Source of the DNA: Eubacterium sp.
GTDB lineage: Bacteria; Bacillota; Clostridia; Lachnospirales; Lachnospiraceae
Direction of reading: 5' to 3'
Assembly: GCA_020844525.1 (NCBI GenBank)
Contig: JAJGAH010000035.1
Span: 1 to 11,104 of the forward strand
Length of the DNA stretch: 11,104 bases
Part shown: piece after piece, positions 1,716 to 11,104 of the stretch
Layout of the letters: each line of letters opens with the position of its first letter
Numbering within the stretch: the stretch's first letter is position 1
Translations under genes and position numbers: made by a program
Notes under the pieces: generated by a model
Told to the model about the DNA's origin: nothing
What the model saw: the letters and a program-made list of their open reading frames with translations, nothing else
The model's database searches: none

Positions 1716-1955
1716 GCAAATACATTCTCTTCCATTCTCGTCTTCTCATGCTTTTCTAACTGCTTGATCTATTTCCATGGCAATACCATTAGCTGCTTGG
1801 CCCCTAAGATAATTCAAAATGTCTTGTAAACCTTGAGCTTTGCCATCGAAGAATCCCTGTGCATTCAAAAATATTGTATGCGATCCATCAACTAGCAAAG
1901 GGAGGTCACTTGTAAACTGTATACATGTGATCTCCCCAAAATAGTTATATAGCAT
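1716..1955 (-). pseudogene. 3' remnant of a PD-(D/E)XK nuclease family transposase (Rpn/PDDEXK_2-like), frameshifted
   Basis: From ATG at 1955 a 69-residue frame runs to TGA at 1746-1748. Its core, LVDGSHTIFLNAQG followed by LQDILNYLRGQ and EIDQAVRKA, matches the C-terminal part of PD-(D/E)XK family transposases, which carry a GDGT.KIFLNAKG motif, then a L..FLDYL segment, then E.D..V..A. The nuclease core is absent. After the stop, the next frame reads MRRREWKRMYLL (about 1745-1715). This fits the family's usual A-x4-EW-x3-YM ending with exact spacing if one base was lost after the KA codons. The remnant is therefore both 5'-truncated and frameshifted. Its 'start' overlaps the stop of the giant pilin gene by one base (TGATG). 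In its own frame a TAG (1959-1961) lies just upstream, so it is not a fusion. A functional 69-residue product cannot be excluded but looks unlikely. Confidence 0.7.
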
Positions 1956-4900
1956 CAGCTACCAGTATCTGATGTACTATCCCCGGAACTGCTGTCAGAA
2001 TTAGTCGTGGCTGTCTGTCCGGAGCTGGAACTGGATGTATCCGACTCAGTGCTTCCAGAGCTGTTTGCATCGGAAGCGTTGTCATCTGTCGAAGATTCTG
2101 TTTCATTACTTGAACTGGAACTACTGCCAGCAGTACTTGTCCCACTTGTGGTCTGAGAGCTGGACCCAGTTAAATCACTATCCGCATCCGAGAAGCCGCT
2201 GCTCTTTGCATTGCCAGTGTTTCCTACATTAATTTCAATAGCAGCAGTGATTTCGCTGAGCTCAGGGTTTGTCACTGTAAGCGTATAGGTTCCTGCGAAA
2301 CTGAAGGCCACTGTACGAACATTCGCTTCCGTACCTGTTGTCAGCTGACTGGAAATATCATTTCCACTGGCATCCGTCAGCTTCCAGGTGGCATCCTTGA
2401 CCGCCTGATCCTGAGAATCAGTCAGCGTAATGGTCACCGTATCATTCACGGATGGATTCGTATTATCTACGGACAGATTATAATCTGGGATATAAGTAAT
2501 ACGTCCATAGCCGTCACCCGAATTACCAATTACGTTGCGACCAGAAGGTGTAGTTATTGTTTCGTTCCCATTCAACATTTTAGCATTTTTTAATCCAGAA
2601 CTGACATATCCAGATCCACCACCAGCAGCTGCACCTTTAGTATAACCCATTCCGCCGCCAAACCAGCCTCCGCCTCCGCCGGCTCCGTTTGGACCATATA
2701 TCAAGCTTCCAAATCTACTTACTTTAACATCATCTGTTCCTCCACCTGCTCCAAACTTTCCTGGAGCGAAGCCATCTGTAATAGCGTTGCTTTTTATGGT
2801 AGTGACATAATATTTTGCATGTCCCGATCCACCACTATTCTGTGTGCCACCAGTTCCTATACCTTCACTTGGGCCTTCTCCAGATAATCCAGAAGCACCA
2901 CCACCAGCGCCTCCATTATAAGGATTATTTTTATCTTTAGCTCCGCCGCCGCCACCGCCACCCGCTACAAGAAGTATTGTGGCTTTATCACTTTCAGTTC
3001 CAAATGCAGCTAAGTCTGCTAATTTTGTAGTAGCCATATGGGATGCACCACCACCAGATCCCCAGAGAAATGCAATATGGCTTTTATTTGATATCTCAGC
3101 TTTTGCATTACCACCACCATTCCATCCGCCTTTTGTTATTGTATTTGGCTGACCATTGGAATCTATATAGTTTGCCGAGGACATCTCACCCGCTCCACCA
3201 ATATAAACATAAATCTTATCTCCCATTGTGAAGTGTTGATATCCTATAGAATAGCCGCCTTTACCTCCTTGTGATGCTAGCATTTTTTTACGTGCAATTA
3301 CGTCTGGATCATTTACATTTCCGGCTAATCCACTTCCTCCTTGTGCTCCCCACACTTCAAGTTTATACCACCCGGTATAGGGAACGATAAATTCCTGAGC
3401 CTCGTCTTCTCCCTTCGAAAAATCCCAGCTATTGTTGATCTCATGCCATTGAGCATAAAGTGTCACCTTTGTGCCATTAGGAGCAAGGGCACGTACAGTT
3501 CCCGTATCCGAATAGGAATCTCCAGTTCCATCTGCCTTGGTATTCCATCCCACAAAGGTATAGCCATTTCTCTGGAATCGACACTTAGGAAGCGTAAAAT
3601 CCCCAAAATAATCAATAGATGTACTCGGATCCATAATCCCTTTTATTTCGCTTGCAATGGCATTTGCATTATATTCAATTGTATAACCGTCGGTACTGCT
3701 CCAGTCTCCATATGCACTCATTCCTTTAGGCATAGGAAATGGATATATTACTCCATTTGTATACTGACTATAAGGATAAGTTGTTGATTGGATAGCTGAG
3801 CTCCCCATACCCTGAGCTTTAGTCAGAGCTGAGTAAGTATAAGCCCGTAATCCTGTGTAAGTATGCGGATTATTATTTGTAATTCCGGTCATGCTGGATA
3901 GATATCCACAATTACTCATTGAGAGGGAGTTATTGCCATCTAAAACAAACATATAGTAATTTTGAGTTTCGTTCTTCCAAATAGCAGCATAATCGTTTGT
4001 TAATTGAACATCATTGTTACTCTGTAGAAAACCAGCACCTACTTTTGCCTTTAGCGTCATACCAACACTGTGACAATTTGCAATCTTAGTTTTCCATTGA
4101 GTTTTTCCGCCAAAACCAGCTACCACATCAGCTGCACTTAATATTACATTAGCGTAAGAATTTGTAATACTTCCACCATCTGATTCACCAAAGAATCCAT
4201 ATGCATTCTGACTGCCATAGACCTTGCCGGAATAACTGCAATTTGTAATATTACCTTGATTGTTAATATATACAAATCCAGCAGTATTAGCATTCAAATT
4301 TTGAGTTGATAAATCTGCACCTGGTTGTAATCCACAAATTAACAGATTATAACCCAATTCCTTATTATTTTGCAGTTCGTTATCAATTGTATTAGTATTC
4401 AATTTATAATACCCATTATCTCCATATTTGTTAATGTAAGTATTATAAACATTGGCATCTGCATAAATCTGACAATCACTGACATTGCTGTTACTGTCAT
4501 TTTTATAGAGGAACCCGTTTCCCCCAATTTGAGCATTCACAATGGAACTATTTTTGATTGTTCCGCCCCATTGATTTAAAGACCCAAAACCATTACCGGA
4601 TATTTCAGCATTTTCAATTGTTACATTATTTATCGTCCCTGCATTGCTGTTCACAAATCCATCTCCGGAAATCTGTGCATTCTCTATACTTACATTTGAA
4701 ATACTGCCATTTCCATTATTAGAGTCTGCTATCAGACCTTTACCGCCAGTAATTTTCAAGGTTGTGAAATATAAATTACTTATTATTCCTGCATTATTTT
4801 CAAGAAAATAATCTGCGTCATAATCATCTATCCTTAAGTTTAACAGCGATGCTTTTGGGCCATTCTGCGGATTGGCCACTTCCTGAAAAACAGGTGTTCT

Positions 4901-7900
4901 TAATCCCTTAAGCAAAACGGGTGTATTATTGTAAACATTTCCCTGATATGTATTGCCTGCTTCAATTTTATCAATTGTATAGGTCGAGTAATATTCACTA
5001 TTATCATGAGCAATTTGCTCATTGAAGCGACAGAGAGCAGCATCACCAGAGTCCAAAGATATATCAGCATCCTGTTCAATTACATATTGCTCACTATGAC
5101 TTTTGTTAATATAGCCATCTGCACTATTTTTCTCTTCTTTGGTAAAATCTATTAATTGACGTCCGCTTCGAATGGAAAAATATCTTTTTCCATCACTTCT
5201 AACTGTGCCGGCGGATGGTAAATTTCCTCCTGTTGTCGATGGTGCTCCTACCTCGTGCGCAAAAAATGGCAAATATTCGAATGCTGCAACAGGATACTGA
5301 ATGTTGTTTTTTGAATAATAGAAGATAAGAGCACATCCTTCACCGTTGGAATAATACTCCCAATCAGTTGCAAACTTACTATCATCCAGCTTATATACTT
5401 TATATCCTGGAAAATCACTTTCCATTGAAGTATATTCACTAAATACTGAAGCTATATTATTGTTTCCATTGTTGAATGATTGCGCATAAGTAGATTTAGT
5501 ATTAAACTGGCTAACAGAGTTCTTGCCAATATATATATCTTGAATATCATCTGTTTCTTTTACCAGAAGAAGATACCCTTCCTCAGCGATATATTCGTTT
5601 TGCTTATAGGGGAATATCTGATCAGCATCGACAGGAGATTCATTTCCCGCAGAATCTATATACTGATACTCGGTCTTCTTATAAGCATTTTTATCCATAT
5701 CGTTTAAAACATCCGTTTTATCGGAAACTTTACTCGTGTAATATCCCTGGTATGCAATACTATCCCCATGTTTTTCATAATAAATTAACCCAAAGGGATT
5801 CTCATCCTCTTTACCTGTCACCCAGTCACCATAATATGATATAAGTCCGGTAACCATCTGATAGGGATAATCACCCGTTAAGGAATCATCATATTTATTT
5901 GTTTCAATAGATTGACTCTGTTTCGCAAAAGGTGTGTTGTTTTTTCCAGTTCCGGCTTTATTTACATTTGCACCTGTTAAAGTACTATTGTTTATTCCTG
6001 CCAAGTAATAATTATTTTGAGAAGAACTGCTGGCATTACCACCAACAAAATATCGCCCATTTATCAACCCAGTAGAATAACAATTTTTAACGACAAGCGT
6101 ATTTGTCCCACTGTATGCAATAAAACTTCCTGACATTGCATTGCCGTCATTTGCATTAGATCCAGAATATGCGGAAGCAGTAGAAAAACAATTGTCTATT
6201 GTGACAGCCAGACTTCCACTACTATTACCGATCTGCCCAATAAATCCACCAGAATACCCATATCCCCGCACATTGTATCTTCCCTGGGTGGTATTGTCGG
6301 TTGTTACATCCTTGTACTGACCATCCGCTGTACGCCCGCCGACATAGCAGTTTTCAATGCTGCTGCCGGAGGTAGTACTGTTCATATATCCGATCAGACC
6401 GCCAAAGCCTGCCTTCTGTGTCTGTCCTGCCTGTATGTCTGCATCTGCAACATACATGGAGGCAGCACTGTCTGACACCTTCAGAGGTCCTGAGGTGCTA
6501 ACATAGCCCAGAAGTCCGGCTGCAGCAGTTCTGGCTGAAATCAGGTCACTGCTTCCAGCTCCATATAACGTACAGTTCTGAACAGTCACAGAGCCCGCAT
6601 AGGCGCTTCCGGAGCTTGAGGATGACGGTTCTGCAGATGCACAATAGCCGAGAATTCCTGCAGCAGAATACTTACCGGAAATCTGGATATATTTGTCCGA
6701 ATCTGATGCTGTAGTATTTCCGGAACTGCTACCGGATGTAGTTTTGACAGATATCGTACAACCGGAAATGGACAGACCTGTCCCGGTGCCCTTCGTCCCT
6801 GATTTCTGCGCAGCCTGGCTTCCCAGAATTCCTCCAGCGCAGGATTGATCCGCATCCGCGGAGATGGCAATTGTTTTACCGGCTGCCACCGTTGTATTTT
6901 GTATGCTTGTTGAAGCAGAATCTGCCTGCCCGAGTATTCCGCCGGCAAACTGGTCTGCCTGAATGGCAAGCGAGGAACCTGCAGAGATTTTGGCAGCAGA
7001 AATTGAAATATTTCCCTGGGCAGAGCCGACCAGCCCGCCAGCTGCTGTTACTGTCGTCCCGGAACTCACATTCCCAGAAACTGCCTTAGCAAGACTCAGT
7101 GTAGTATCTCCGATCACACTGACATTCTGAATCGTTGTCTTCCGGTCTGTTCTTCCAGCAAGAAAACCGGTATAAGACGCAATGGCAGCAGAAGGATTTT
7201 TCAGAGTGAGGTTCTGAATGGTCATAGAGTTCCCGGCATTTGAAGCACCTGTACCAGAGCCGGTACCGGACGAACTGCCCGTGCCGGACTGCGCACTGCT
7301 GCCCTCGTCAATATATCCGAATAACCCAGAAACAGTGCTGCCTGTGTCAGAAGATATGGCAGAAGAAACCGCACTGATTTTAAGATTGGAAATCGTGCAG
7401 CTGTTTCCTTCAAATGATGTCAGCGCGGAATCCACAATACCGGAGAACTGCTCTCCATTACTGCTGGCGCTTACGTGATCGGCACGTTCTACCGGGTCTG
7501 TCTCCCAGAAGCGGATTGTCATCTTTGACCAGTCCAGATCCCGGATAAGCTTTGCCTTTGTGACCACGCTGTCAGATCCGTTTGTCCCTGAAGACGAAGC
7601 ATTGACCCCTGAAATTTTCGTACTCAGGTTCTGAAGATGTCTGCCATAGACAATCTTTGCAAGATGATCACTGCCTGCGGATCCGTTTGCAAACAGACTG
7701 TTCGTGTTCAGCGTTACGCTTGCGGAAGCATCAGACTTGTCAGAAGTATTTGAAGTACTGTCCGAATTGCTCAATGTGACCGTAATAGTCAGATTTTCTC
7801 CCGGGATCAGTGCATCCGTACCTGTTCCAAACTGCTTTGCAAACTGCCAGTCATCTCCATCTGTGACACTGTCAAGGGTGTAGTAGTATACACGGTATCC

Positions 7901-8917
7901 GGTACCGGATTTACTATATACGCCTTTCAGGGCATCCTTGCCAAGAGAAGCGGTGTCAGAGGATTTACCCAGTGTGATTTCTCTGGTATAGCCGCTTGTC
8001 TGCCCCTTTATCGCTGCCTTTATGGTATAAGCTTTCTGATTCGATCCGGTATTTTTCTGTTCCGGCACTGCAGCCTGAAGGACCAGGCGATCGTCATTTT
8101 CAACGATTGCCGTCAGTGTATCTTCCGTATCTTCAGGTTCTGATCCCGTTGAAGTCGCACCGCCATAATATCCAACCATCGGCGTGCCCTTCATGCGCTC
8201 CGACTTGCTCTTTCGGCTGGCATTCTGATAAGCATCGGTATCGGCAATAGAAGTAACGGAAGCAGTACTGCTGCCAAGTGCCTTTTTAAGGTCAGTCTGC
8301 TTGCAGAACCATACGCCGTAGACCGTCGCGGTCTTGGCATCGTATTCTATGACAATATTTCCGTTTCCGCGCAGCGTCTCATCGATAGAATCATAGGGCA
8401 GAATCATAGAAAGAATGCCGGGATCGTTTGTTTCATCTGTACTGGTGACGACATAGCGGAAGTCATGCTTCTCGTCCTCTGCTAGTGTGCCATCAGCCCA
8501 TTCTGTGCTCCAGGTGCCAAGTGTGCCATCATAATCAGACGGGCCAGCTGTATCGCCGGCACCGGCTCCCATTGCGCTTCCAAGCTGACTTGAAGCTGAC
8601 GTTGAGGATTCCGCGTCAGAGACATAGGTATCCCAGTTGCCGCTGGCCTTCGCCACCGTCATATGGTTCTGAGCAGCCACAAAGATTTCCCTTGCGGTGT
8701 TGTCCAGCTCTGTCTGCTTCAGAGATTTCTGATAGCGGATTACCGCCACAAAGCCAAAAGCTGCCAGAATGCCGATAATCGCAACCGTGATCAGCATTTC
8801 TGCCAGCGTAAAGCCCTTGCGGGATCTGCGGAATTTGTCCTGGAGCGTATACTGTTCTCTGCCGCAGGATGACACCGCTGCCTTTTTTTCCCTTCTCAGA
8901 TATCCTATATCTCTCAT
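1955..8917 (-). CDS. Giant modular type IV prepilin-like surface protein (2320 aa)
   Basis: I recognise the domains but no named gene. The N-terminus is a type III prepilin signal: a basic 35-residue leader ending RRSRKG, then FTLAEM with Glu at +5 and a hydrophobic helix (about 36-58). Peptidase cleavage after G35 and assembly into a pilus-like filament are expected. Residues about 60-210 resemble a pilin head (ILPYDSIDET, YDAKTATVYGVWF). Residues about 235-415 look like a beta-sandwich. Two beta-helix-like modules follow (418-1032 and 1246-1739) with GLFG/GGLIG-type GLUG-like motifs. Then come an InlB-type B repeat (1745-1824), a glycine-rich domain (1829-2143), an Ig-like domain (about 2146-2231) and a Ser/Thr/Gly/Asp tail (2232-2320). 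There is no LPXTG signal or C-terminal membrane segment, so retention would depend on the pilin helix. ATG 8917 is chosen because the next Met (41) lies inside the pilin helix; AAGGA (8929-8933) lies 11 nt upstream. G+C drops sharply between about 6300 and 2600. Domain identity is firm for the prepilin signal and InlB repeat, good for the glycine-rich part and inferred for the helices. The adhesin role is inference. Confidence 0.9.
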   Translation of the reverse strand: MRDIGYLRREKKAAVSSCGREQYTLQDKFRRSRKGFTLAEMLITVAIIGILAAFGFVAVIRYQKSLKQTELDNTAREIFVAAQNHMTVAKASGNWDTYVSDAESSTSASSQLGSAMGAGAGDTAGPSDYDGTLGTWSTEWADGTLAEDEKHDFRYVVTSTDETNDPGILSMILPYDSIDETLRGNGNIVIEYDAKTATVYGVWFCKQTDLKKALGSSTASVTSIADTDAYQNASRKSKSERMKGTPMVGYYGGATSTGSEPEDTEDTLTAIVENDDRLVLQAAVPEQKNTGSNQKAYTIKAAIKGQTSGYTREITLGKSSDTASLGKDALKGVYSKSGTGYRVYYYTLDSVTDGDDWQFAKQFGTGTDALIPGENLTITVTLSNSDSTSNTSDKSDASASVTLNTNSLFANGSAGSDHLAKIVYGRHLQNLSTKISGVNASSSGTNGSDSVVTKAKLIRDLDWSKMTIRFWETDPVERADHVSASSNGEQFSGIVDSALTSFEGNSCTISNLKISAVSSAISSDTGSTVSGLFGYIDEGSSAQSGTGSSSGTGSGTGASNAGNSMTIQNLTLKNPSAAIASYTGFLAGRTDRKTTIQNVSVIGDTTLSLAKAVSGNVSSGTTVTAAGGLVGSAQGNISISAAKISAGSSLAIQADQFAGGILGQADSASTSIQNTTVAAGKTIAISADADQSCAGGILGSQAAQKSGTKGTGTGLSISGCTISVKTTSGSSSGNTTASDSDKYIQISGKYSAAGILGYCASAEPSSSSSGSAYAGSVTVQNCTLYGAGSSDLISARTAAAGLLGYVSTSGPLKVSDSAASMYVADADIQAGQTQKAGFGGLIGYMNSTTSGSSIENCYVGGRTADGQYKDVTTDNTTQGRYNVRGYGYSGGFIGQIGNSSGSLAVTIDNCFSTASAYSGSNANDGNAMSGSFIAYSGTNTLVVKNCYSTGLINGRYFVGGNASSSSQNNYYLAGINNSTLTGANVNKAGTGKNNTPFAKQSQSIETNKYDDSLTGDYPYQMVTGLISYYGDWVTGKEDENPFGLIYYEKHGDSIAYQGYYTSKVSDKTDVLNDMDKNAYKKTEYQYIDSAGNESPVDADQIFPYKQNEYIAEEGYLLLVKETDDIQDIYIGKNSVSQFNTKSTYAQSFNNGNNNIASVFSEYTSMESDFPGYKVYKLDDSKFATDWEYYSNGEGCALIFYYSKNNIQYPVAAFEYLPFFAHEVGAPSTTGGNLPSAGTVRSDGKRYFSIRSGRQLIDFTKEEKNSADGYINKSHSEQYVIEQDADISLDSGDAALCRFNEQIAHDNSEYYSTYTIDKIEAGNTYQGNVYNNTPVLLKGLRTPVFQEVANPQNGPKASLLNLRIDDYDADYFLENNAGIISNLYFTTLKITGGKGLIADSNNGNGSISNVSIENAQISGDGFVNSNAGTINNVTIENAEISGNGFGSLNQWGGTIKNSSIVNAQIGGNGFLYKNDSNSNVSDCQIYADANVYNTYINKYGDNGYYKLNTNTIDNELQNNKELGYNLLICGLQPGADLSTQNLNANTAGFVYINNQGNITNCSYSGKVYGSQNAYGFFGESDGGSITNSYANVILSAADVVAGFGGKTQWKTKIANCHSVGMTLKAKVGAGFLQSNNDVQLTNDYAAIWKNETQNYYMFVLDGNNSLSMSNCGYLSSMTGITNNNPHTYTGLRAYTYSALTKAQGMGSSAIQSTTYPYSQYTNGVIYPFPMPKGMSAYGDWSSTDGYTIEYNANAIASEIKGIMDPSTSIDYFGDFTLPKCRFQRNGYTFVGWNTKADGTGDSYSDTGTVRALAPNGTKVTLYAQWHEINNSWDFSKGEDEAQEFIVPYTGWYKLEVWGAQGGSGLAGNVNDPDVIARKKMLASQGGKGGYSIGYQHFTMGDKIYVYIGGAGEMSSANYIDSNGQPNTITKGGWNGGGNAKAEISNKSHIAFLWGSGGGASHMATTKLADLAAFGTESDKATILLVAGGGGGGGAKDKNNPYNGGAGGGASGLSGEGPSEGIGTGGTQNSGGSGHAKYYVTTIKSNAITDGFAPGKFGAGGGTDDVKVSRFGSLIYGPNGAGGGGGWFGGGMGYTKGAAAGGGSGYVSSGLKNAKMLNGNETITTPSGRNVIGNSGDGYGRITYIPDYNLSVDNTNPSVNDTVTITLTDSQDQAVKDATWKLTDASGNDISSQLTTGTEANVRTVAFSFAGTYTLTVTNPELSEITAAIEINVGNTGNAKSSGFSDADSDLTGSSSQTTSGTSTAGSSSSSSNETESSTDDNASDANSSGSTESDTSSSSSGQTATTNSDSSSGDSTSDTGS
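1958..2224 (-). other. Ser/Thr/Gly/Asp-rich low-complexity tail (residues 2232-2320)
   Basis: The last 89 residues are almost only Ser, Thr, Gly, Asp, Asn, Glu and Ala, with runs such as SSSSSSN and SSSSSGQ. They end abruptly at SDTGS and a TGA. There is no LPXTG, hydrophobic segment or basic tail. The stretch may be a flexible, possibly glycosylated stalk. It could also be a truncated linker that once led to another domain. Confidence 0.75.
2225..2482 (-). other. Ig-like domain (about residues 2146-2231)
   Basis: Residues LSVDNTNPSVNDTVTITL, then ATWKLTDASGNDISS, then FSFAGTYTLTVTNPE and AAIEINV give a seven-strand-like alternation. A 'TYTLTVTN' strand near the end is common in bacterial Ig-like and PKD-like spacer domains. 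It follows the glycine-rich domain and precedes the low-complexity tail. Confidence 0.6.
2489..3433 (-). other. Glycine-rich domain resembling the ALK/LTK type, residues 1829-2143
   Basis: The opening is WDFSKGEDEAQEFIVPYTGW, then YKLEVWGAQGG, with later GGKGGYSIG, YVYIGGAGE, GGWNGGGNA, GSGGGASH, LLVAGGGGGGGAK (seven Gly at 1986-1992), GAGGGASG, GGGGGWFGGGMG and GGGSGYV. It ends SGDGYGRITYI. The order (F..PYTG.Y.LEVWGAQGG, glycine strips, then a G.GR+.. end strand) is that of the bacterial glycine-rich domain family related to the receptor ALK/LTK glycine-rich region. The poly-Gly strips suggest a packed polyglycine-helix core. The function here is unknown; a binding or adhesive role is inference. 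Confidence 0.7.
3446..3685 (-). other. InlB-type B repeat (Listeria-Bacteroides repeat), residues 1745-1824
   Basis: The segment starts YTIEYNANA and contains the diagnostic NGYTFVGWNTKADGTG, then YAQW at 1821-1824. This is the usual pattern of the family (Y.V.Y.AN, then GYTF.GW.T..DG, then tLYAQW). These small beta domains occur in secreted and wall-associated proteins of Firmicutes and Bacteroidetes, often as spacers next to binding domains. There is a single copy here, between module 2 and the glycine-rich domain. Confidence 0.85.
3701..5182 (-). other. Beta-helix-like module 2 of the giant pilin (residues 1246-1739)
   Basis: This module begins YFSIRSGRQLIDF, comparable with the IVYGRHLQNL opening of module 1. 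It ends YPFPMPKGMSAYGDW (1725-1739), comparable with the end of module 1. Inside are rungs such as ISNLYFTTLKITGGKG, three tandem SI.N..I.NA.I.G.GF units, GFVYINNQGNITNCSYSG, and GFFGESDGGSITNSYAN. It reads as a second, divergent copy of the module 1 architecture. It is encoded in far more AT-rich DNA than most of module 1. Confidence 0.55.
4511..4708 (-). repeat. Three tandem beta-helix rungs (residues 1404-1469)
   Basis: Three consecutive units share the pattern G-S/T-I-x-N-x-S/T-I-x-N-A-x-I-x-G-x-G-F. They lie at residues 1404-1421, 1427-1444 and 1452-1469, with periods of 23 and 25 residues. The first is GSISNVSIENAQISGDGF and the second GTINNVTIENAEISGNGF. A degraded fourth unit (SNVSDCQI) follows. 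Such a regular period fits stacked coils of a solenoid and points to local duplication. Confidence 0.75.
5822..7666 (-). other. Beta-helix-like module 1 of the giant pilin (residues 418-1032)
   Basis: This module opens with HLAKIVYGRHLQNLS and closes with YPYQMVTGLISYYGDW (1017-1032). Between them are repeated rung-like stretches, each with a glycine-hydrophobic turn: GLFGYID, GGLVGSAQG, GGILGQAD, GGILGSQ, AGILGY, AGLLGY, GGLIGYM and GGFIGQIG. Each is followed by short Ser/Thr-rich strands of the I-x-N-x-T/S type. This spacing is typical of GLUG-motif and pectate-lyase-like right-handed beta-helices. The fold is inferred from repeat pattern only. The first part is GC-rich, and the change to AT-rich codons begins near its end (about 6300). 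Confidence 0.6.
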
Positions 8918-9087: not shown

Positions 9088-9771
9088 TCAGGCGTCTCCA
9101 CTGTCACTTTCAGAGGAATATCCACCGATCACAGCCGTCCGGACCGTCTCGGATTCTATCTTCTTGTCACCCTTATAGACAGTCATGGTATATGTAAAAT
9201 ACGGATTGAATGCCTGTACCGTCTTTGAATTGTCCTTGGTGCGCGCTGGTGTGATGGAGATATCGCTGATCTGCAGCCGCAGATTCAGAGTTCTCGTCTT
9301 TGCTGTCACAAGCGGGATTGCACCAGTCGCATCACTTGTACCGGTAGTATCGGCGGAAGATCCAGTGCCGGAAGTTCCTCCGGATCCGGAAGCTCCATCT
9401 GTTCCTGTATCCGCATCTGTCACATAAACCGTATCTGCATCGTTGTGGATATGCACGGAATAGCCGCGGTTTCCTGAAAAAAAGGATACCTCCGCCGCTT
9501 TTGAACTGCCATCTGTATCGGAATCAATTTGCAGTGTGGAAAGATCTGCCGTGGCAAAGTCATCATCTATTGCCGCAATGGCCGTTCCAAGCAATGTCTG
9601 TGCATCCGCCTTCAGCGTCATCTCACGATAAGTGCGGACCGCAGCCGTAATACCTGCGGCAATCGCCAGCGTTGCCAGCGACATCAGCAGGACAGTCACA
9701 AGCATTTCTGTCAGGGAAAAACCTGACGCGGATTTTATTCTGTTGTTTGTATCTGTTTCCTTACTTTTCAT
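9088..9771 (-). CDS. Type IV prepilin-like (minor pilin / pseudopilin) protein
   Basis: From ATG 9771 this is 227 residues. A short polar leader (MKSKETDTNNRIKSASG, 17 residues) precedes FSLTEMLVTVLLMSLATLAI. That is a complete type III prepilin signal with Phe at +1, Glu at +5 and a hydrophobic helix. Next comes an amphipathic continuation (TYREMTLKADAQTLLGTAIAAI), as in pilin N-terminal helices. The C-terminal part is beta-like and is interrupted by a Gly/Ser/Thr-rich stretch (GASGSGGTSGTGSS). An in-frame ATG at 9870, directly after the upstream stop (TAAATG), would add 33 residues. I prefer 9771 because AAAAGGA lies 8 nt before it and the leader then has a typical length. It probably works with the neighbouring prepilins in one filament. 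No cognate family name is recognised beyond the signal. Confidence 0.85.
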   Translation of the reverse strand: MKSKETDTNNRIKSASGFSLTEMLVTVLLMSLATLAIAAGITAAVRTYREMTLKADAQTLLGTAIAAIDDDFATADLSTLQIDSDTDGSSKAAEVSFFSGNRGYSVHIHNDADTVYVTDADTGTDGASGSGGTSGTGSSADTTGTSDATGAIPLVTAKTRTLNLRLQISDISITPARTKDNSKTVQAFNPYFTYTMTVYKGDKKIESETVRTAVIGGYSSESDSGDA

Positions 9772-9779
9772 AAATAAAA

Positions 9780-9786
9780 TCCTTTT
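9780..9786 (-). promoter_or_regulatory. Strong ribosome binding site supporting the 9771 start
   Basis: AAAAGGA on the minus strand is 8 nt upstream of ATG 9771, close to ideal. The competing ATG at 9870 has only AGGGA three bases ahead of it. This site decides the start choice for the small prepilin. Confidence 0.6.
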
Positions 9787-9870
9787 GTCCGTTGTAGTCG
9801 GAAGCTCACTGTTCTTGTGCAGTGGAAGGAGTTTTGAAAATAGTTTCCTTATTTTTCGTAATATTGTCAT

Positions 9871-10401
9871 TTATCCCTGCTCTGCTGGGAAGAATGTCAG
9901 ATTTCCATCCTCCGCTTCACGAACGGTCACGCTTTCCTTGATCTGTGGCAGACTGTAATCTGACGCCTTGGAAGCATCAGCCGGCTTTATCACAACATCT
10001 GTCTTGCCATTGTCCGTAACGCTGCTTTCATCAGACGTACTGCCGGTACCACTACCGGTACTGCCGTCTGCAGTATCCGTTGCAAGTGCACTGTGCTCAC
10101 TGATGTAGCTCGCATATGCCTTTCCGGATCTTGTGATCACCCTGCGGGCTGCCAGCACCATCGTTACCAGGAGAACCGATGCCAGCGCCACGATAAGCAC
10201 CGCAACCAGTGTCTCTGTCAGGCTCTCTCCGGATCCGGACGACAGCTTTGCAAATACTGAGCCGCGTGGCGGACGATCCTGGCATGTCTTGTTTATTCTG
10301 TTTTTTCCTTCTCCATTTTCATACGTATGCATATCATCCAATTCATGCGTATGCATAGGGTTCGTATGGTTCAGCATCAATTTTCTATGCATGATCCTCA
10401 T
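9871..10401 (-). CDS. Prepilin-like protein with atypical signal (minor pilin candidate)
   Basis: From ATG 10401 this is 176 residues. After a long polar leader, SGSG is followed by ESLTETLVAVLIVALASVLL: the helix and the Glu at +5 of a prepilin signal are present, but +1 is Glu rather than Phe or Met. A short head follows with a Gly/Ser/Thr/Asp-rich stretch (DGSTGSGTGSTSDE) and a final strand (SVTVREAEDGNLTFF). The stop TAA abuts an ATG of the next gene. The start is uncertain. ATG 10401 lies 19 nt after the upstream stop with GAGAGGA close before it. ATG 10392 is also plausible, and ATG 10488 would overlap the upstream gene by 68 nt. It could be a minor pilin or pseudopilin; the odd +1 residue leaves processing open. 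Confidence 0.7.
   Translation of the reverse strand: MRIMHRKLMLNHTNPMHTHELDDMHTYENGEGKNRINKTCQDRPPRGSVFAKLSSGSGESLTETLVAVLIVALASVLLVTMVLAARRVITRSGKAYASYISEHSALATDTADGSTGSGTGSTSDESSVTDNGKTDVVIKPADASKASDYSLPQIKESVTVREAEDGNLTFFPAEQG
10324..10357. repeat. 10-bp direct repeat CGTATGCATA, 24 bp apart, in a prepilin leader
   Basis: CGTATGCATA occurs at 10324-10333 and 10348-10357. The 24-bp offset equals eight codons, so on the minus strand it produces MHTHELDD and MHTYENGE in tandem within the leader. It also adds extra in-frame ATG codons. This is probably a small local duplication with no demonstrated role. Confidence 0.5.
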
Positions 10402-10420
10402 CGTCCTCTCAGGGAAAGAT

Positions 10421-11104
10421 TCAGGTTCCTGCCGGATTCTGCGCAGTGATCGCCGATCCGGTGTAGACCTTTGCACTGCCCCATCCAAATCCGCTAAGCG
10501 TCACACTACGAGTCATTTTTACCTGATAGATCTCTGTCCTATCCTGCTTTGTCTCTGTCAATGTCGTGTTCGCGTCTTGATCATACTGAAGTTCTCCGGC
10601 GTTAGCCGGGATTTTTACAAGGCACCGGTTTGATGCATTCTTGAAGGAAATGGTATTTCCATTACTGTCGGATTCCTTCGGATAGATCTGTGCCTCCAGA
10701 TTGAGATTTTTGTCCATATAAAGATCGACGCAGACTGAAACGTTGTCCTTATCGCCCTGATCTCCCTGCACAATTACAACATAAGCCTGCCTGCTCAGGC
10801 AGGACTGTGTTTTCAGATAAGTATCAAGATTGGATCCGCTGTGTCCATACATCCAGGTGTGATTGGAAGGAACCTTATCACCCTTCCATTCGTACGCATT
10901 ATCCGAAGAAAAAGAGCTGTCCTGCACGCTCTGCCCCAGATATCCATCATCCTTCAGGACATAGCTGTTCCAGAAATAATTCATGATCTGACCCGCGCGT
11001 ACCTTTTCATAGCCCGTAAAATCCAACCCTGTCAGTGATGCGATTTTGTCAGAACTGCTTAGCGTCGCAAATGGCGATACAGGCAGCTTTTCACCAGGGT
11101 AGGA
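10421..11104 (-). CDS. Unrecognised beta-rich protein of the pilin operon, C-terminal part, 5' end outside window
   Basis: The minus-strand frame is open from the window edge to TGA at 10421-10423, giving 227 residues. A TTG at 11026 could be read as a start, but 26 sense codons precede it to the edge (SYPGEKLPVSPFATL...), so the gene most likely begins outside. The visible part has no membrane helix. It is polar with many alternating strands (AYVVIVQGDQ, NVSVCVDLYMD, LEAQIYP), three Cys and a Thr-rich end (TRSVTLSGFG). I do not recognise a family. Because two prepilin genes follow immediately, it may be the head of another large pilin or a pilus-associated protein. That is inferred from context only. 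Confidence 0.75.
   Translation of the reverse strand, partial: SYPGEKLPVSPFATLSSSDKIASLTGLDFTGYEKVRAGQIMNYFWNSYVLKDDGYLGQSVQDSSFSSDNAYEWKGDKVPSNHTWMYGHSGSNLDTYLKTQSCLSRQAYVVIVQGDQGDKDNVSVCVDLYMDKNLNLEAQIYPKESDSNGNTISFKNASNRCLVKIPANAGELQYDQDANTTLTETKQDRTEIYQVKMTRSVTLSGFGWGSAKVYTGSAITAQNPAGT

Follow-up and report, generated by a model that had tools for sequence, protein, structure and literature searches.

Analysis of the window, an 11,104-base stretch that makes up one whole contig (G000:C35) of a 2.53-Mb assembly of 69% completeness, revealed a gene for a giant prepilin of 2320 residues. Its product is probably a modular minor pilin that would be cleaved, incorporated into a type IV pilus (T4P) within an HIJK tip complex, most likely in the H place, and would present its payload at the tip as an adhesin. 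The preliminary description of this DNA had portrayed a single extreme protein; instead, a recurrent family emerged, present in at least 30 of 250 Lachnospiraceae genomes.

The giant open reading frame starts with ATG, contains no internal stop and encodes a mature protein with a computed mass of 238 kDa. A 2522-aa homologue from a genome of the same genus (G002) could be aligned over most of its length, with differences of 0.40/0.33/0.61 at the three codon positions. Judged by these codon-position differences and this homologue, the frame is genuine coding sequence, and a chance open reading frame was ruled out by homologues along its length. Close relatives of the giant that bear a name, among the matches listed in a protein search, belong to Bilifractor sp., a Lachnospiraceae genus from which the window therefore probably derives. 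The middle of the gene (window positions 3518-5917) is AT-rich, with a GC content of 0.34-0.38 compared with near 0.5 at the gene ends, and the G002 gene is similar; a recent foreign insertion behind the dip (residues 1000-1800) was unsupported, since G002 dips at about the same place. No RNA family reached its gathering score in the window, and promoter and terminator scans at two gene ends returned nothing exceeding shuffled sequences. The positions of all features are collected in Table 1.

Table 1. Location of the giant prepilin gene, its predicted modules and the neighboring genes in the window, with the basis of each assignment.
Feature	Positions	Strand	Basis
Giant prepilin gene	1955..8917	-	ORF of 2320 aa; homologues; G002 copy
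35-residue leader ending RSRKG35	8813..8917	-	Sequence; N_methyl 30-54; G35, F36 and E40 invariant in 9 giants
Pilin alpha1, residues 36-91, Glu at +5	8645..8812	-	AF2 helix 38-91; PDB sequence matches
Pilin head, residues ~92-215	8273..8644	-	AF2 strands 153-158, 186-193, 198-206
Ig-like beta-sandwich, residues 249-422	7652..8173	-	AF2
RHLxN motif, residues 426-430, solenoid entry	7628..7642	-	R426, H427, L428 and N430 invariant in 9 giants
Beta-solenoid 1, residues ~490-1000	5918..7450	-	AF2
AT-rich beta-solenoid 2, residues 1243-1721	3755..5191	-	AF2
List_Bact/InlB-type repeat (Flg_new), residues 1745-1823	3449..3685	-	PF09479, 35 bits, cutoff 27
ALK/LTK glycine-rich domain, residues 1848-2143	2489..3376	-	PF12810 (ALK_LTK_GRD), 106 bits; Foldseek 7nx1
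C-terminal Ig-like domain, residues ~2137-2229	2231..2509	-	AF2 strands; SpaA sub-threshold, 2160-2214
Ser/Thr/Asp-rich tail, residues 2230-2320	1958..2230	-	Sequence
GspJ/PilW-like minor prepilin, 260 aa, G↓FSLTEM	9088..9870	-	TIGR02532 17.0, cutoff 16.3; J label by eye
GspI/PilV-like minor prepilin, G↓ESLTET	9871..10488	-	I label by eye
GspK/PilX-like minor prepilin, C-terminal part	10421..11104	-	Start beyond contig edge
Mur-ligase-family gene, folC-like by our reading	369-1715	opposite direction to giant	ORF and domain match

The N-terminus of the giant scored over the cutoffs of both Pfam N_methyl (PF07963; 29.6 bits, cutoff 21.2) and TIGR02532 (29.0 bits, cutoff 16.3), with Glu at +5 of the cleavage context RSRKG35↓FTLAEM. 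Two features that define type IV pilins were found here, namely a class III signal (a charged leader ending in Gly, Glu5 and a hydrophobic tract) and a predicted alpha1 helix of about 50 residues, which AF2 modeled as a single helix of 54 residues and for which the PDB sequence matches were geopilin and PilA pilins. The prepilin signal and hydrophobic helix proposed in the preliminary description were, by these models and matches, borne out. The AF2 models are of moderate confidence overall (mean pLDDT 66 and 62), and the predicted pilin head (strands within residues 153-206, modest pLDDT) matched no solved pilin head. In Foldseek searches, the N-terminal model gave no PDB match at E 0.001, with P19 and Ig-type sandwiches making up most of the top rows, and none of the 50 VIA rows listed was a pilin.

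An alignment of nine diverse giants revealed invariant positions both at the cleavage site (G35, F36 and E40) and in the RHLxN motif at the entry of the first solenoid. To follow these elements through the family, 264 distinct homologues of 1833-4653 aa were assembled from three protein searches (the best 120 of 771, 51 of 51 and the best 120 of 2713 matches listed). The prepilin pattern was matched in 249 of them; in ten more the start was called at a Met within the same helix, two carried the variant motif GGFTQ[V/I]EQ, and three were fragments beginning inside the payload, so that the prepilin helix is kept in 261 of the 264 listed; RHLxN was present in 251. Homologues devoid of the signal had been named as a possible objection to the pilin reading, and none among the 264 was convincingly so; likewise, a search with the payload alone (residues 480-1700) returned no homologue clearly lacking a pilin start. 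One of the three fragments, P0121, corresponds to the portion of the giant gene of another congener (G012:C30) that lies beyond an in-frame TAG (L024 ~9429-9503). P0121, the matching piece downstream, represents ten sequences, and the TAG may therefore not be a lone assembly error.

Behind the pilin part lies a payload of about 2,000 residues in which PF09479 and PF12810 domains follow PF07963, the arrangement by which modular pilins have been recognized (Raynaud 2021). The best Foldseek match of its glycine-rich domain was LTK (7nx1, E 1.1e-5). The beta-helix-like modules, InlB repeat, glycine-rich domain, Ig-like domain and Ser-rich tail reported earlier were all recovered by AF2, Pfam or the sequence itself, and the structure prediction suggested at that time, once run, showed the beta-solenoids and an Ig-like part near the C-terminus and added a beta-sandwich at residues 249-422 that the earlier account had missed. 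That account had also pictured display without sortase anchoring. The protein ends in neither an LPXTG motif nor a hydrophobic C-terminus, on which grounds a sortase-anchored adhesin was rejected, and an LPxTG-like motif occurs in the last 60 residues of only 1 of the 264 homologues listed.

The content of the payload varies from lineage to lineage. Some relatives carry F5/8C modules and some, by the listing, a CBM2 module; CHAP and PASTA domains are found in some payloads, and Cna_B and List_Bact in others. Such differing payloads would be the pattern expected of adhesins with exchanged heads, as which the giants are candidates. Peptidoglycan hydrolase domains terminate a few of the giants, either NLPC_P60 with Hydrolase_2 or CHAP, once with PASTA (G195:C19 at L172-L174, P0020, P0095 and P0143), CHAP being present in 3 of the 264 homologues listed; no hydrolase domain was found in nine other C-terminal pieces of giants that were scanned. 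In these rare giants the terminal hydrolase domains could be relevant to the passage of the pilus across the wall. Within a clade formed by 89 of the best 120 homologues (P0024-P0120), the pilin helix is near-identical and the middle strongly variable. When 40 of the 89 were aligned, conservation averaged 0.97 over the first 60 columns and 0.99 over a stretch near the C-terminus, and it dropped to 0.47-0.68 over columns 1261-1680 of P0035; the clade sequences are representatives at 90% identity, so that this selection sets their overall diversity but does not decide where in the protein the variation lies.

A survey with a model of the giant's N-terminal part covered 250 genomes of Lachnospiraceae, which represent each genus by roughly one genome and, except that of the window, are all at least 90% complete. 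Matches at 1e-8 occurred in 88 genomes, many of them through the helix of ordinary pilins, and among the matches listed at least 30 genomes had a matching frame 1400 aa or more in length. These frames ranged from 1454 to 7664 aa; the largest (G195) runs unbroken from its prepilin start to terminal NLPC_P60 and Hydrolase_2 domains. A PilB gene was detected in 109 of these 250 genomes, in 28 of the 30 with a giant and in 81 of the 220 others (Fisher p 1.6e-9, uncorrected for phylogeny). By blast, PilB, PilC, PilD, PilM or PilT was detected in the fetched flanks of 26 of the 30 giants; the flanks devoid of machine genes were those in G000, G230 and G114, which lie on short contigs, and in G158, where PilB lies ~40 kb from the giant on the same contig. 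A scan of named genomes yielded, among the matches listed, mostly Planctomycetes that matched in the helix only, and of those listed four loci (L046-L049) matched over more than 200 query residues. Both machine genes and a K/I/J-like trio of minor prepilins were present at L046 (Eubacterium pyruvativorans) and L047, and neither at L048 and L049, which are short contigs. At L048 (actinobacterial MAG Coriobacteriaceae RUG11223, 8734-10346), a prepilin start and a matching module were read before the contig ended after 537 aa.

The machine itself is less evident around the window. In the window assembly, at 69% completeness, neither a PilB-type ATPase nor a PF06750 peptidase was found, the only pilus-type genes seen there being a Tad-like set and those for a PilT-like ATPase and its PilC-like companion. 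Neither of the two was found in the 96% complete G012, whose contig stops approximately where the T4P locus starts in G002; a gap is thus likely, and true absence of the machine in G012 is weakened by this contig end. In G002, a full T4P locus is present on a contig separate from that of the giant (C10, C14). All three congeners (G000:C55 at L033, G002:C18 and G012:C138) were read to carry a small cluster in which a PilC-like gene and a PilT-like ATPase gene accompany pilin-like genes devoid of the standard cleavage motif. In other congeners this cluster was seen by family matches, and it occurs both with and without giants. The lack of machine genes in the window genome, the separation of giant and PilB in G002 and the suitable size of the protein would all agree with a membrane-anchored surface stalk, in which the prepilin helix serves solely as an N-terminal anchor and the giant never enters a filament. 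We consider such a stalk unlikely, given that a plain anchor requires neither the cleavage-site Gly nor Glu5, both kept in nearly all of the 264 homologues listed, and given the linkage of the giants to machine genes (26/30) and to a minor-pilin cluster (30/30), and we retain the reading of the giant as a pilus subunit.

This minor-pilin cluster is also found in the window. On the minus strand the gene order is the C-terminal part of a K-like gene, an I-like gene, a J-like gene and the giant, and the order is identical in the congeners G002 and G012. The J-like product, which passes TIGR02532, scored 18.6 bits with N_methyl, under the cutoff, and shares 58-60% identity with the G002 and G012 copies. 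The I-like product matched no family among the Pfam and TIGR models and is 48-50% identical to the same copies; its listed TTG start probably lies upstream of the true start. The K-like fragment, also matching no Pfam or TIGR family, is 51% identical to the C-terminal half of a 512-aa G002 protein that carries EG↓ASLTV and lacks Glu5.

K-, I- and J-like genes, labeled by eye from the helix motif and gene order, were identified at a giant locus in all 30 giant genomes, the reading covering 27 loci of 26 survey genomes together with G017, G019, G027 and the window. The trio mostly adjoins the giant, lying ~11-13 kb away in G064 and at the first locus of G195. The K-like protein lacks Glu at +5 in 29 of 29 giant genomes with a readable K start and measures 153-316 aa in the 29 giant genomes other than that of the window. 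Glu5 was present in every giant start read, some second giants being left out, and is missing from the I-like protein at five giant loci (G252, G200, G158, G107 and G249). Outside the survey, machine and trio were both present in G052 and G058, and I- and J-like genes adjoin a giant at a contig end in G001. Enlarged J- or I-like minor pilins were observed in G163 (L159:2241-4481, 746 aa) and G017 (L030/L044, 579 and 629 aa).

Ten T4P loci from genomes without a giant, meaning below the 1400-aa cutoff or outside the model, served as controls, and their flanks were widened at eight loci or wherever enough contig was available. K/I/J-like partners were seen in seven of the ten and not in those of G089, G063 and G076; a trio special to giants was consequently rejected, and the linkage marks a minor-pilin cluster and not the giant as such. 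In one of the seven (G085) the trio is compact. The other six (G276, G101, G088, G268, G188 and G136) each encode a set of four minor prepilins. A large K-like protein, 728-939 aa long in the five cases where it is complete, lacks Glu5; the remaining three bear Glu5 and measure 339-552 aa, 173-279 aa and, for the small one adjoining K, 168-221 aa. At these loci (L184/L193, L186/L194, L187/L195, L189/L196, L191/L197 and L192/L198) the small fourth pilin follows the large K, and G268 has an additional Glu5 prepilin of 1117 aa nearby. At the giant loci the giant stands beside the trio and the small fourth prepilin is not there. The bulk is therefore carried by K in the controls and by the Glu5-bearing fourth pilin at the giant loci, a contrast that fits the giant being the H member. 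Scored against family models, the giant gave 19.7 bits with GspH, 15.6 with ComGD and 14.3 with ComGC, all far under the cutoffs.

According to published work, the pilus tip consists of HIJK subunits, which initiate assembly and have as their cap a K that lacks Glu5 (PMC9934059, PMC10191384), and it is from the HIJK-like neighborhood that we infer the tip position. The size of the payload by itself does not force it: contrary to the earlier statement that such a size permits a tip or a stalk only, a payload on a flexible linker might also be accommodated within the shaft (Raynaud 2021, PMC8179133). With this linker and the Glu5 of the giant in its favor, a pilus subunit placed along the shaft or at the base has to be weighed, and we regard it as rather improbable: the giant has a K/I/J-like set next to it, which is typical of tip-complex members, copies of a 238-kDa payload all along a shaft would presumably be very crowded, and a few genomes (G200, G181, G148 and G195) hold two giants. 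That the giant is the working head of a short pseudopilus, or of a device for type II-like secretion or transformation, appears highly improbable. HIJK sets are common to T2SS and Com systems (PMC10191384) and one relative bears the annotation 'type II secretion system protein', but many giant loci encode PilT-like ATPases (in a few, the PilT query matched PilB only) and most encode ordinary pilins of ~150 aa, as in pili.

The best reading is thus that of a minor pilin at the fourth (H) place of HIJK, a counterpart in monoderms to the job of PilY1 in diderm pili. In the proposed mechanism, the prepilin peptidase would cut the leader after G35, the alpha1 helix would anchor the giant in the membrane with the remainder outside, and the pilus machine would pack this helix into the filament. 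The giant and the minor pilins of K, I and J type would jointly form a tip complex from which assembly of the filament starts, with the giant most likely occupying the H place beneath the Glu5-less K. The payload would thereby be displayed at the end of the pilus and act as an adhesin that PilT could retract. More tentatively, the giants may represent a class of monoderm T4P in which the H subunit has turned into an effector of ~0.2-0.8 MDa, with one giant starting each filament, its payload swapped in a cassette-like manner and, in rare cases, hydrolases that could aid the crossing of peptidoglycan. If true, a fair share of gut Lachnospiraceae genera would display giant, fast-varying adhesins on their pili, and monoderm pili would gain a general tip effector. 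Monoderm pilus binding, the maximum load on one pilin and wall crossing, which a 2019 review lists as an open question (PMC6916266), would then become addressable.

Our search of the open-licence literature found, among the papers listed, no published account of giant pilins of this kind, and their current annotations read 'glycine-rich protein', 'GLUG motif-containing protein', 'type II secretion system protein', 'prepilin-type N-terminal cleavage/methylation domain-containing protein' or hypothetical. Clostridial T4P, including Ruminococcus albus GP25 and those of Clostridioides, take part in adherence (PMC6916266), and no giant pilin is named in the passages on them. The solenoids resemble the beta-helix and GLUG repeats of the IgA1 protease (M26), but an M26 reading of the GLUG-type solenoid was rejected, the HExxH zinc site being absent from the 2320 residues. 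With PilC/PilY1 of diderm T4P the giant shares a very large size, a modular build and a proposed role as tip effector beside the minor-pilin complex. PilY1, however, is a non-pilin with its own C-terminal domain and neither is true of the giant; homology was rejected, as a prepilin signal is present and no PilY1 C-terminal-domain Pfam match appeared at E 0.1. Monoderm pili are said to be without PilY1, S. sanguinis having modular pilins at the tip instead (PMC9934059). The likeness to HIJK complexes (PilH-K, GspH-K and ComGD-G) lies in the four-gene set with a K-like protein devoid of Glu5, with the difference that the fourth member at the giant loci is the giant, a putative H by its locus position.

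S. sanguinis PilB and PilC likewise combine a prepilin signal with Glu5, a small pilin module and C-terminal adhesion-type domains in a monoderm T4P, and models place them with a second minor pilin in a complex at the tip, to which we liken the giant (PMC8179133, PMC9934059). They differ in size (PilB has 454 residues and PilC 52.8 kDa, against 2320 residues in the giant and frames of up to 7664 in its relatives), in payload, which in the giant consists of solenoids, a glycine-rich domain and InlB-type repeats, and in the partners, which are K-, I- and J-like here. Among the 264 architectures described for modular pilins, the extreme by domain number has 860 residues with 12 motif copies (PMC8179133). 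Modular pilins are thus already known, and what is new in the giants is a size class that exceeds this extreme by a factor of about two to nine, together with a locus in the minor-pilin cluster.
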